DNA of 54,168 nucleotides from Clostridia bacterium (GTDB lineage Bacteria; Bacillota; Clostridia; TANB77; RGIG9151), in contig JAGBIO010000015.1 in NCBI GenBank assembly GCA_017934955.1, positions 1 through 54,168 on the forward strand, written 5' to 3'. Under the pieces are notes generated by a model. The model ran no database searches. It was not told the DNA's origin and worked only from the letters and a program-made list of their open reading frames with translations. The position numbers and the translations under genes are program-made. Numbering within the stretch: the first letter of the stretch is position 1; each line of letters begins with the position of its first letter. Shown here in pieces: positions 31,139-40,563 of the stretch.

Positions 31139-31537
31139 TTATTTTGCTGAACAAATATACTCCTTACTTGACACTTTATTACTATTGTTTTTCTTAGCTG
31201 TATTTAATGTAGCCACAAGTAGTCTTTTGATTTCAAGACAATCCGAAATTAAAGATTTTCCCTCTGTTTCTTCTATATATTCTGACAAAATCAATAATCT
31301 CAACCAATACTCAGTTTCTGCTGTTTCTTTTAACGATATCTGTAATTTTGCAATAAAATCTGCCTTACTAATGCCATAAACTGCCTCATTCGCATTTGCC
31401 CCAATAGAAGTTGCACTTCTGATGATTTGCTTCGAAATAATACCTTCCTGTTTTTCTTTTATAAGATACTTATGAAGTTGAACGATTCTTGCTGCAAATT
31501 TTAATGATTTTTCGAGTAACACATTTTCTTTTTCCAC
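31139..31537 (-). CDS. Four-helix bundle protein (23S rRNA IVP family)
   Basis: A 132-residue, all-helical protein of the S23/four-helix bundle family: SLKFAARIVQLHKYL, then the signature IIRSATSIGANANEA, then KADFIAKLQISLKE and EYWLRLL. Members are found inside 23S rRNA intervening sequences or as solitary accessory genes, sometimes with diversity-generating retroelements. No such context is seen here, so the role is unknown. Start ATG 31537 behind AAGAGGTGTTGTTG. Confidence 0.85.
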   Translation of the reverse strand: MEKENVLLEKSLKFAARIVQLHKYLIKEKQEGIISKQIIRSATSIGANANEAVYGISKADFIAKLQISLKETAETEYWLRLLILSEYIEETEGKSLISDCLEIKRLLVATLNTAKKNNSNKVSSKEYICSAK

Positions 31538-32571: not shown

Positions 32572-34854
32572 TTATCTCTTTCTAAACAATCCCTTCAATC
32601 CGCTGTTGCTATCCGGCACATTTCTCGACATCGGTCTTCCGCCGATTGGGAAGATTTCCTGAATAATAATCGAAATTGCCTGCTTAAACTCATCTGAGAA
32701 ACCGGAAAAATTCATCTTAGAAGAATATAAGTTCTCAATATATCTCAAATAATTTTGTTCATCGAACGGAATAATAAACCGTTTCGTACTCTTCGGCAAC
32801 AACTCATCATACACCAGCATATCCGGATTCGGATTATTATAAAAAGCCAAAGCTTCCATAATTTTAGAAGGTGTCAAAGAAGACTTCATATACTTATTAA
32901 TAATTACCGAACATTTCTCCATATCCACTTCATGCTCTTTTAATTCCTTCAAAAACATGGTAATCGGCAAAATATTCATAACATCCATATCCTGTACAAC
33001 ATATACACTCTGCGCAAAACGAAAAACTTCCAACGGTGTCTCGAAATTACAGTCAATTAAAACAACCGAATTTTCACGTTTTACCAATTCTATCATCTTG
33101 TATACATCATACTTCATTCTGGATAATTTATCTGCACGAGGAATTCCGGTATATACGCTTAAAATTCCTAACTTTAACGGCTGTAACTGACCGATCACAA
33201 GATTATTCAAACTGTTAGCCGCTATTCTTGCATTCTCGCTGTCTCCTGCCGCATAAATCAAGAAGGAATCCTTGTTTCTTGTCAAATCAATAATCGCAGT
33301 CTTTACACCTTTCGCCGCAAGCACATTCGCAAGCGCGTTGATAATAAACGTCGTACCTGTCTTATGGGCACCGATAAAGCATACCGTCTTTTTATAATCC
33401 TTCGGTGTTTCATAAACCTCTTTAATGACCTCTTTTTCAATTACCTGCGTAACTGTCTGAATTTGAGGCTCCATCACAGAAGGACGAGGCGGTTGATAGC
33501 GACTCGGTGGTGCATAAGGCTGAGGCTCCGGTCTCGTAGGTCTCTCAATCACCGGCTCAACTTTTGGCATTACCGGTTTCGGTCTTTCTATTATCGGTTC
33601 TGCTTCCGGCATTACCGGTTCCACCTTCGGCATCACAGGCTGCGGTCTCTCAATTACCGGTTCCACTTTCGGCATTACCGGCTCTACCTTCGGCATCACA
33701 GGCTGCGGTCTCTCAATTACCGGTTCCACTTTCGGCATTACCGGCTCTACCTTCGGCATCACAGGCTGCGGTCTCTCAATTACCGGTTCTATTTCCGGCA
33801 TTACAGGTTCTACCTTCGGCAATTCCGGTTCCGGCTCTACCTCTGGAATTACAGGTTCTACCTTTGGCAATTCCGGTTCCGGCTCTACTTTCGGCATTAC
33901 AGGTTCTACTTTGGGTAATTCCGGTTTCGGAGGTTCTGGTTTTTCTACTATTTCAATCTTTTTCGGCATCTCAACTTTCGGTAATTCCGGTTCCGGTTCT
34001 ACTTCCGGCATCGGCTCTATCTTTGGTAATTCCGGTTCCGGCTTTACTTCCACTATCGGCTCTGCCTTCGGTAATTCCGGTTCCGGCTTCGGTTGTTCCA
34101 CTACAACCTCAATCGACTTCGGCATCTCAACTTTCGGCGGTTCCGGTTGCGGTTTTGGCTTTGGTTTCTCGATAACCGGCTCTGCTTCAGGAATGATCGG
34201 CTCTACCTTCGGAGTTACTCGTTCTACTTTCGGAATAACCGGCTCTACTTTCGGAGCCCTTACTACCGGCTCTATTTCCGGCGGTATTGCTTTTGGTTTT
34301 TCAACAACTTCTTCCTTCGGCTTTTCTTGTATATAAACCGGTACTTCAACAACCCTTACCTTTTCCTCCACCCTTGCATGCTTTCCGGTCTTTTGGGTAG
34401 GTGCACTCATAATAGCAATATACTTTTCAGACTCTGCCTGCAATATCTCTCTTGCCTTTTGCGGTAAAAAAGGAACAATTTGCTTCAACTTCTCAAAAGT
34501 ATATTGCTCGTATAAACTATCAAATCCCGAAACAATCTTTTCTCTGCTAAATATATTCTTTTCATAATAACGAATAATATTTCTAAGTTCTTCCTCGTCT
34601 GCCTTATCTGCAACATCATACGGATTTTCCTCAATATCCACATCCACAAACATTTTCGCTTCTTTTTTGGTACGCGGACGATTAATCAACTCAGCTAATT
34701 TTCCAACCGTACGATCCTGACCGGTCAACACATTATAAATTCCCAAATTAAAGAAACTCTTTAACAACTTATCATTCGGTCTTCTGTTTTCCGAACAAAT
34801 AAAAATGATATCCGCTCTTCCCGCTTCGTCGGTTATTCTATCTATATTCTTCAA
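32572..34854 (-). CDS. TadZ/CpaE-like NTPase with Pro/Glu repeat region (second part of split gene)
   Basis: An open frame of 760 residues. The first 130 or so continue an atypical receiver-like domain (ADIIFICSENRRPND, LGIYNVLTG, RPRTKKEAK). About 200-470 is a low-complexity region of repeated PKVEPV/PEPELPKVEP/VIERPQPVM units, predicted extended. About 480-760 is a MinD/ParA-type NTPase with GAHKTGTTFIINALA as the P-loop, the GTT form known from CpaE/TadZ. TadZ proteins position Tad pili; no tad genes are nearby. The frame opens at a TTG without a ribosome binding site. The real start is in the 34869-35072 frame, joined across an A6 run (see finding). Confidence 0.72.
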   Translation of the reverse strand: MKNIDRITDEAGRADIIFICSENRRPNDKLLKSFFNLGIYNVLTGQDRTVGKLAELINRPRTKKEAKMFVDVDIEENPYDVADKADEEELRNIIRYYEKNIFSREKIVSGFDSLYEQYTFEKLKQIVPFLPQKAREILQAESEKYIAIMSAPTQKTGKHARVEEKVRVVEVPVYIQEKPKEEVVEKPKAIPPEIEPVVRAPKVEPVIPKVERVTPKVEPIIPEAEPVIEKPKPKPQPEPPKVEMPKSIEVVVEQPKPEPELPKAEPIVEVKPEPELPKIEPMPEVEPEPELPKVEMPKKIEIVEKPEPPKPELPKVEPVMPKVEPEPELPKVEPVIPEVEPEPELPKVEPVMPEIEPVIERPQPVMPKVEPVMPKVEPVIERPQPVMPKVEPVMPKVEPVIERPQPVMPKVEPVMPEAEPIIERPKPVMPKVEPVIERPTRPEPQPYAPPSRYQPPRPSVMEPQIQTVTQVIEKEVIKEVYETPKDYKKTVCFIGAHKTGTTFIINALANVLAAKGVKTAIIDLTRNKDSFLIYAAGDSENARIAANSLNNLVIGQLQPLKLGILSVYTGIPRADKLSRMKYDVYKMIELVKRENSVVLIDCNFETPLEVFRFAQSVYVVQDMDVMNILPITMFLKELKEHEVDMEKCSVIINKYMKSSLTPSKIMEALAFYNNPNPDMLVYDELLPKSTKRFIIPFDEQNYLRYIENLYSSKMNFSGFSDEFKQAISIIIQEIFPIGGRPMSRNVPDSNSGLKGLFRKR

Positions 34855-34868
34855 TAAATTGGTATCAA

Positions 34869-35072
34869 TTAATCCTGATTTTTTCTTGCCGTAGGTTCCA
34901 ACTCTTCATGAATGACAATTCTGTCAAAAGTCTTATCCTTTTTCAAGGTTTCCGTTATATTCCTAAAAAAGTATACCTTTGTCGCATCAATCTTCTCGCC
35001 ATACGTCACTTTATAATGTTTAATAATACTATCAACAGTAGATTCATTATTAATCGCAAATAGAACTTTCAT
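34869..35072 (-). CDS. N-terminal part of the split TadZ-like gene
   Basis: 67 residues, MKVLFAINNESTVD.. through FDRIVIHEELEPTARK, ending 4 codons after an A6 run. It is the first half of a receiver-like domain whose second half is in the 32572-34854 frame. Inserting one A, or shifting -1 at A-AAA-AAT (about 34879-34885), joins the two with no internal stop. Start ATG 35072 has GGGGTGG upstream. Either a frameshift mutation, a sequencing error or programmed frameshifting. Confidence 0.7.
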   Translation of the reverse strand: MKVLFAINNESTVDSIIKHYKVTYGEKIDATKVYFFRNITETLKKDKTFDRIVIHEELEPTARKNQD

Positions 35073-35138
35073 TTTGCTCACCACCCCAATATACTTTTTT
35101 CAACTTCACACATTTAAGTGTTTATATGTACTCTGAAA

Positions 35139-35222
35139 ATTACAAATCAAACTATAGCGACAGAAAACAGTTTGTACGGACACAATTTATTGTGTCCAAA
35201 TTCTACTGTCTGCCGATTTCTG
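35139..35222. repeat. Truncated MITE copy R10
   Basis: Eroded left end ATTACAAATCAAAC, then one type-two palindrome (35178-35197). The second palindrome and right end are missing. It abuts the stop codon of the 35223-35603 gene. Confidence 0.7.
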
Positions 35223-35603
35223 CTAAAATCTTAAAGACACTAAAAACACAATCAAATATACAAACTTCGCAATTACCATAAATGTGAAGCTTCCCCACAT
35301 TAATAACATTCCATTACGTTTCTTATATAAATTTCGAATACCCATAATAAAATACTGAACCGCGCCCCAAAGAATTAACAATAAACAAATCGGCAAACTC
35401 TTATCACTAATTTGCCCTATTACCATCAATACAACATTGTTTACCGTATTTGCTGCTTCATCAATCGTTTCTTCTACCTTTTCGGTCGTAATCGCATTTT
35501 GTCCTTCCTTTGCAAAATCAAACTCGCCCTCTGCATAACAAAATTTTGGAACAAGCATTGTCACAAACATTAGTATAATAAAAACTGCTCCTATTTTTTT
35601 CAA
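35223..35603 (-). CDS. Exported small membrane protein, unknown
   Basis: About 126 residues. Signal peptide or first helix at about 4-24 (GAVFIILMFVTMLVPKFCYA), an acidic middle (GEFDFAKEGQNAITTEKVEE), then two further hydrophobic segments (SLPICLLLILWGAVQYFI and FTFMVIAKFVYLIVFLVSL) with a basic loop RNLYKKRNG between. The layout, a cleaved leader then two helices, recalls TrbC/VirB2-type pilins, but no family match can be claimed. I start at TTG 35603 behind GGAGGGG. It lies between atpC and the TadZ-like gene and may belong with the latter. Confidence 0.65.
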   Translation of the reverse strand: MKKIGAVFIILMFVTMLVPKFCYAEGEFDFAKEGQNAITTEKVEETIDEAANTVNNVVLMVIGQISDKSLPICLLLILWGAVQYFIMGIRNLYKKRNGMLLMWGSFTFMVIAKFVYLIVFLVSLRF

Positions 35604-35687
35604 TCCAAACCCCTCCAAACAAAATAACGCTAATTTTTTTCTTACTCATTATTTTACCACAAATTTGAGCTTAATTCAAGTCTTACC

Positions 35688-38410: not shown

Positions 38411-38463
38411 GCCTAAAAATCAGTCCTTTCAATACGCACACATTTCTAACACAGTACTACTAT

Positions 38464-38612
38464 CACGGACAGCATAAATGCTGTCCCTACGCATCTCTAC
38501 ATTCTGTACGGACAGCATTCATGCTGTCCTGCCTTTTCCACGGACACAATAAATTGTGTCCCTACAATATTGTGCCTCTTTCTAACTGTACGGACAGCAT
38601 TCATGCTGTCCA
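38464..38612. repeat. Palindrome cluster R11 inside the atp operon
   Basis: Four palindromes: 38467-38486, 38510-38529, 38542-38561 (second type, GGACACAAT..) and 38592-38611. Types one and two are mixed within one array. It sits between atpG and the duplicated atpA end at 38617-38637. Confidence 0.8.
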
Positions 38613-38616
38613 TATT

Positions 38617-38637
38617 CTACACCTTGAACCAAGTCTT
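38617..38637 (-). repeat. 21-bp duplicate of the atpA 3' end
   Basis: The minus-strand sequence AAGACTTGGTTCAAGGTGTA(G) encoding the last residues of AtpA (KTWFKV and stop) occurs at 39072-39052 and again exactly here, 435 bp away. The pair brackets the small membrane gene at 38663-39040. Confidence 0.95.
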
Positions 38638-38662
38638 GATTTCTTATTCCATTTGCTAAACT

Positions 38663-39040
38663 TTATGGCATAAAAATTTTCCACGCAAAGTTAAAGAGAA
38701 TTATTTCAATAGCAGAAATCGTCAATAAAATTGTACCATACAATAGTTTGTTTTTAGCAAATATATATCCTAATACAATAACAATTATCGTGCAGATTAA
38801 CGAAATACATTGATTAACCGAATCTTTTAATTCCAAAGTATAAAAAAGTTCCTCGTAACGCGAAACAATTCTTGTAGGATAAGCAACACTCACATCTTCA
38901 GTTAACGTTTCTAAATCATATATTGTACTTTCCACATTAGCAAAAGGAACCAATGCTATTTTAAAAATATTTACTGCGTTCAAGAAAACAAATAAAGCCA
39001 CTCCTATTATTAGCACAGCATTTTTTTGCCACTCTTTCAT
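38663..39040 (-). CDS. Small membrane protein inserted in the atp operon, unknown
   Basis: About 125 residues with three hydrophobic helices: NAVLIIGVALFVFLNAVNI (about 6-26), CISLICTIIVIVLGYIFA (about 78-98), and YGTILLTISAIEIILFNFA (about 102-120). Between helix 1 and 2 is an outside or loop region of about 50 residues. No family recognised; it is not AtpI or AtpZ by position or motifs. Start ATG 39040 behind GGGGGGTTCACT. It lies between atpA and atpG, bracketed by a 21-bp direct repeat, so it is probably an insertion passenger now cotranscribed with the operon. Confidence 0.7.
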   Translation of the reverse strand: MKEWQKNAVLIIGVALFVFLNAVNIFKIALVPFANVESTIYDLETLTEDVSVAYPTRIVSRYEELFYTLELKDSVNQCISLICTIIVIVLGYIFAKNKLLYGTILLTISAIEIILFNFAWKIFMP

Positions 39041-39051
39041 AGTGAACCCCC

Positions 39052-40563
39052 CTACACCTTGAACCAAGTCTTATAGTCATCAATCGCCTTAATCAGCTTC
39101 TCTTCAATATCCGCCTTTAATTCCTTCGTCTCCACAATCGCCTGCAAAATCTCCGGCGCTTTCTCTTCTACATGTTTTACCAATCCCTCATTAAAACGAG
39201 CAACATCTTTTACATCAATATCTGCCAAATGCCCATTTACAACCGCATACAAAATCACAACTTGCTTTTCAACCGCCAATGTCTGATACTGCGGTTGCTT
39301 AATGGTTTCTAAGGTTCTCTGACCTTGTATCAATTTATCTCTTGTAAACTTATCCAAATCCGAACCAAACTGTGCAAATGCCGCCAGTTCACGGTACTGC
39401 GCCAAGTCGATACGAATTCTTCCAGCCAACTTCTTCATAGCCTTAATTTGAGCCGCACCACCTACACGAGATACAGAAAGTCCAGCGTTAATAGCCGGTC
39501 TTTGACCTGCGAAGAACAATTCACTCTCTAAGTAAATCTGACCATCAGTAATGGAAATAACGTTTGTCGGAATATACGCCGAAACGTCTCCCGCCAAGGT
39601 CTCAATAATCGGTAACGCCGTAATCGAACCGCCACCATGAGCCTTATCCATCTTCGCTGCACGCTCTAATAAACGAGAATGTAAATAGAATACATCTCCC
39701 GGATAAGCCTCACGTCCGGGCGGACGACGAAGAAGCAAAGACATTGCACGATAAGCCTGTGCATGCTTAGATAAATCATCATATACGATTAAAACATCTT
39801 TCCCTTTTTCATACATAAAATATTCCGCAATTGCGCAACCTGCATACGGCGCAATATACTGAACCGGCGCCAAGTCACTCGCCGTCGAAGAAACCACAAT
39901 CGTATGATCCATCGCGCCATATCTCTTTAAGGTTTCCACAACCCCCGCAACCGACGAACCCTTTTGACCGATTGCCACATAAATACAGATAACGTCTTGA
40001 TCTTTTTGATTGATAATCGTATCAATCGCAATCGCTGTTTTACCGGTCTGTCTGTCCCCGATAATCAACTCTCTCTGACCTCTGCCGATCGGAACCATCG
40101 AGTCAATCGCCAAAATACCGGTTTGAAGCGGTTTGTTAACTGACTCTCTCGTGGTAACGCCCGGAGCCAAAAACTCTACATCACGGTATCCCTCAATTTT
40201 ATAATCGCCTTTTCCGTCAATCGGACGACCAACCGCGTCAATGACTCTTCCGATTAACTCTTCCCCAACAGGAACACTCACCGATCTACCCGTTCTTCTT
40301 ACCTGCGTTCCCTCTTTAACGGTAGTTTCGCCACCTAAAAGAACACAACCGACGTTGTCCTCCTCTAAGTTCATCGCCATTCCCAAAATACCATCACCAA
40401 AATCAATCAATTCGCCGCACATACAATTATCCAAGCCATACACCTTCGCGATACCATCGCTCGCTTGAATGACATAACCGACTTCATCGCTCTTTATCTT
40501 GGCATCGAAATTTTCAATTTGTTTTCTTAATATCTCGCTGATTTCTTCCGGTCTTATCGTCAA
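39052..40563 (-). CDS. atpA: ATP synthase alpha subunit
   Basis: Non-catalytic nucleotide-binding F1 subunit, 503 residues: Walker [15 protein letters not shown] near 170, the conserved [11 protein letters not shown] near 262, and the alpha signature [14 protein letters not shown] with the arginine finger region near 370. Start GTG/ATG region at 40563 ([15 protein letters not shown]). The last 21 bp, including the stop, are duplicated 435 bp downstream. Confidence 0.97.

Follow-up and report, generated by a model that had tools for sequence, protein, structure and literature searches.

A probable isolated one-base frame disruption in a conserved ATPase-like gene beside an A6 heptamer that looks coincidental

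The window, a stretch of 54,168 bases that makes up one complete contig (C2) of a 1.57 Mb genome in 35 contigs, contains two overlapping minus-strand frames that most probably represent a single gene interrupted by an isolated one-base frame disruption. We put the probability of this reading at about 85%; it takes the disruption to be a recent mutation or an assembly error in an otherwise constrained gene, and the A6 run nearby to be a coincidence. The gene has uncut homologues, its break amounts to a single base and the break is isolated, as in a frame-disrupted gene. The finding is an ordinary one, and a recoding reading, as proposed in the original prediction of a shift or slip on an A_AAA_AAT heptamer, is not supported.

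Rereading of the minus-strand codons recovered the heptamer and both frames as they had been described. An ATG at 35072, with a plausible ribosome binding site (GGGGTGGTGAG), opens a 67-codon frame (34869–35072, minus strand) that ends in EELEPTARKNQD and a stop, encoded as AGA AAA AAT CAG GAT TAA. One base back, a second frame reads KKKSGLIDTNLLKNIDR and is open for 777 codons, to 32572 (downstream frame, 32572–34887, minus strand); it overlaps the upstream frame by about 11 codons, A6 included, and in its −1 relative register carries the same protein onward as SGLIDTNLLKNIDR. In G002, a member of the same family but of another genus and the nearest relative in which the gene is whole, a single uncut frame of 701 residues encodes the protein. 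The upstream frame, which forms the start of the N-terminal domain and is in the native frame as far as its stop, has 63% identity to residues 1–67 of the G002 protein, and the downstream frame is homologous to the remainder, comprising the rest of the N-terminal domain, a Pro/Glu/Val repeat linker and a P-loop domain (alignments A2 and A3). With the G002 frame as query, tblastn returned two abutting pieces, 17–83 (63% identity) and 80–717, so the two frames are halves of one homologous protein, as had been proposed, and not a chance arrangement. Both halves also keep the coding character ascribed to them, with a nonsynonymous proportion against G002 of 0.24–0.25 in each and synonymous sites near saturation, and the downstream frame has not decayed. 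This equal constraint is compatible alike with a very recent break, with an error and with continued synthesis of the product.

Our alignments place the frame change beyond the A6 run. The heptamer lies at 34878–34884 (minus strand), and the break, a premature TAA next to a one-column gap in the DNA and protein alignments with G002, lies at 34866–34875 (minus strand). Across this site the G002 protein reads EELEPISYKNQDLIDNYIFKNVDNIT, joining YKNQD directly to LIDN; in the window the upstream frame reads RKNQD up to the stop and the downstream frame resumes at LIDT (LIDTNLLKNIDRIT). The single gap column of the nucleotide alignment falls after CAG GA, outside the A run and about 10 bases past A6, and the stretch KNQD that separates A6 from the stop is read in the native frame and matches G002 residue for residue. 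A shift at A6 turns NQD into KSG; scored against the family of 29 relatives, RKNQD, as read in the upstream frame, obtains +4.0 bits, against −9.3 bits for the slipped RKKSG, a difference of about 13 bits. Because KNQD matches G002, the gap lies later and RKNQD outscores RKKSG, the native frame runs through and past A6 to the stop. Homology thus switches frame after KNQD, beside the stop, and not at the heptamer, where programmed −1 frameshifting would place the switch. The comparison does not support a frame change located at A6, whether by a shift or by an extra A.

The original prediction had also named a duller alternative, a mutation or sequencing error within the homopolymer. A mutation or error is what we favour, but not its placement in the A run: errors are common in homopolymers and an A7 run would join the frames too, but the native sequence would then read RKKSG instead of RKNQD, the version that scores 13 bits worse against the family, and G002 reads KNQD. 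We consider a loss of one A from an original A7 extremely unlikely.

The gene is widespread in the order, with a match in 373 of the 385 genomes sampled, and the matches listed, the window's own gene aside, are all without internal stops. At the site itself, codons were read in 29 relatives including G002 (TAT AAA AAT CAA GAT TTA); every one is uncut, and the A6 run is found in 0 of 29. As these relatives have neither A6 nor A7, the suggested comparison of the two run lengths among them is inapplicable. In G001, of the same genus, only the last 81 residues are present, at a contig edge, and the genome is uninformative on the site because an assembly gap falls there. The C-terminal domain used as a query against genome contigs found no relative. 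A pattern spanning the junction matched 8 records from unrelated taxa in genome contigs, which are taken as chance matches, and none in viral contigs; it turned up no further genome of the species.

In the reading that we prefer, the intact gene would encode one protein, composed of an N-terminal domain, a repeat linker and a ParA/MinD-like P-loop domain, and the loss of one base beside the GAT-TAA codons, some 10 bases downstream of A6, would break its frame. That loss may have arisen by recent mutation in the sampled strain or as a consensus or assembly error; the two appear nearly even, with error slightly ahead. The break is probably recent, and a fixed loss of the gene is less likely because the gene is near-universal in the order. 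Among about 190 comparable frames (682 kb of this genome versus 764 kb of G002), this gene is the only one for which the split lies in this genome, so a generally indel-ridden assembly was rejected as an explanation. An alternative genetic code was likewise rejected, since it is the frame that changes and not the meaning of one codon. Separately, G002 has a possible split gene of its own (L141:4092–4693), matched in two frames at 43–44% identity by an uncut frame of this genome (L126:3413–4024). In a survey of prokaryotic frame transitions, 146 recoding clusters were set against 4010 pseudogene clusters, and singletons validated by homology are expected to come from sequencing error, not from true indels (PMC3711429). 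The window's gene resembles these GeneTack singletons: a one-base split affects one gene of a single genome, homology extends across the break and the site is not conserved. Nothing notable sets the gene apart from them.

Programmed −1 ribosomal frameshifting at A_AAA_AAT, which would yield the 67-residue and full-length products in a set ratio, is by comparison very unlikely. A slippery heptamer of the right form does lie in frame within the overlap, as in dnaX and the IS3-family transposases (PMC4066793, PMC5009743), and the downstream frame is intact; unlike those systems, the window has no conserved site and no stimulators, and its homology breaks downstream of the heptamer. The site is missing from all 29 relatives read, none of the other full-length members listed is split, and KNQD is conserved when read without a shift. 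For the 81 bases downstream, folding is no more stable than in shuffled sequences (z −0.27), and none of the Shine–Dalgarno (SD)-like motifs of PMC4066793 was seen in the sequence upstream of the heptamer. In the same E. coli study A_AAA_AAC was of low efficiency, and A_AAA_AAU falls outside its list of 18 selected motifs, those that are underrepresented and give more than 0.10% shift without stimulators (PMC4066793). With no site in relatives, native-frame residues on its flanks and no structure 3′ of it, we judge the heptamer incidental. Within the window's own genes, A_AAA_AAN occurs in frame in 1.2% of 11-codon stretches and any X_XXY_YYZ in 8.1%, and the A6 run beside the break looks coincidental.

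Because such a heptamer has only about a 1% chance of falling in so short an overlap, some rescue at A6 is conceivable, and a real recent mutation partly compensated by unprogrammed slippage of the ribosome or RNA polymerase on the A6 run is unlikely but the least improbable of the rivals. The slipped frame would yield a full-length protein with three residues changed, and A runs provide a precedent in the rescue of Citrobacter rodentium tssM, where a premature stop also follows soon after the run (PMC4256274). That case of transcriptional rescue, proven by experiment, depends on 11 A's against the 6 at this site, and nothing indicates that the break is real. Such rescue, if it did occur, would exemplify incipient recoding; we see only a slender chance that A6 slippage is here rescuing an ATPase gene that is conserved across the order and newly split, as a compensatory recoding site at birth. 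It is hardly credible that the halves are separate working proteins, the second made by reinitiation past the TAA. The second frame is intact and has a TTG 15 bases beyond the stop, but inspection of the sequence found no suitably spaced ribosome binding site for this codon (34854), as the original prediction had noted for the downstream frame. In the alignment, moreover, one conserved domain would be cut in two, and the gene is split in no relative among the matches listed. The one-base disruption outside the A run is the reading that we retain, and its lesson is mostly cautionary: a recoding site can be mimicked by an A-rich heptamer close to a break in frame, while relatives place the frame change elsewhere.

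The protein begins with a strongly conserved N-terminal domain of about 230 residues (75% mean column identity, alignment A3). Tandem repeats at 33551–34256 (minus strand) encode the Pro/Glu/Val-rich linker; Tandem Repeats Finder gave periods of 63, 48, 45 and 21 among others, most of them divisible by three. The C-terminal P-loop domain has a Walker-A-like motif, G[AT]xK[TN]GT[ST] (alignment A2). Searches gave no Pfam or NCBIfam match above cut-off and no PDB profile match to any solved chain; weak matches below cut-off are to the ParA/MinD class (CbiA, E 0.041; MipZ, 0.048; BcsQ, 0.058). A single-sequence structure model of the C-terminal domain has a pLDDT of 40. TadZ proteins combine an N-terminal domain with a ParA/MinD-like P-loop domain that has an atypical Walker A. 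The window protein is like the TadZ/CpaE pilus-localising ATPases in this general layout; it differs in its long repeat linker and in having no profile match to a curated family or solved chain. The 'TadZ' and 'receiver' labels first given to it find no support in the profile searches, with no TadZ or ParA/MinD family match above cut-off, and the name TadZ is best regarded as unproven. Nor is there linkage to tadA, tadB or tadC: the neighbours are a small membrane protein gene and atp genes, in the window and G002 alike upstream, and IreB and RuvX genes in other genomes. In G000 the T2SSE and T2SSF genes are on other contigs; G079 carries the ATPase-like gene but lacks T2SSF, and no T2SSE match there exceeds the cut-off.

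The conserved partner is a small two-helix membrane protein encoded upstream at 35223–35618 (minus strand). In 8 of 8 genomes compared, its homologue is adjacent and precedes the ATPase-like gene, followed in most by IreB and RuvX; a weak T4SS_pilin match, below cut-off, was obtained for its G002 homologue only. Our best guess is that the ATPase works with this small protein to position or assemble a pilus-like or membrane structure. The pair, at 32572–35618 here and at the order-wide loci L064–L069, is uncharacterised, gives no Pfam or NCBIfam match above cut-off, is nearly universal in the order and often lies beside IreB/RuvX.

Other features of the contig were recorded in passing. The gene at 31139–31537 encodes a member of the 23S rRNA-intervening-sequence four-helix family (PF05635, E 1.5e-23) and is situated outside an rRNA gene. 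Palindromes of 20 bases, GGACAGCATNNATGCTGTCC and GGACACAATNNATTGTGTCC, occur 29 times in the window (positions include 36, 1075, 11380, 20847, 35178, 38467, 45165 and 48543), often paired 39–46 bases apart, against 0.15 in the shuffled window. A further 378 were counted in 628 kb from elsewhere in the genome, but G002 has only 2 in 764 kb and the two G001 pieces have none. Between the two forms, changes in one arm are paired with changes in the other, and the set appears to be a REP- or MITE-like repeat whose expansion is specific to the species or genus. Four of these palindromes lie between atpG and atpA (38411–39051), where about 640 extra bases, compared with a spacing of about 57 in G002, also hold a 134-residue membrane-protein-like frame (38663–39067) with no Pfam match.
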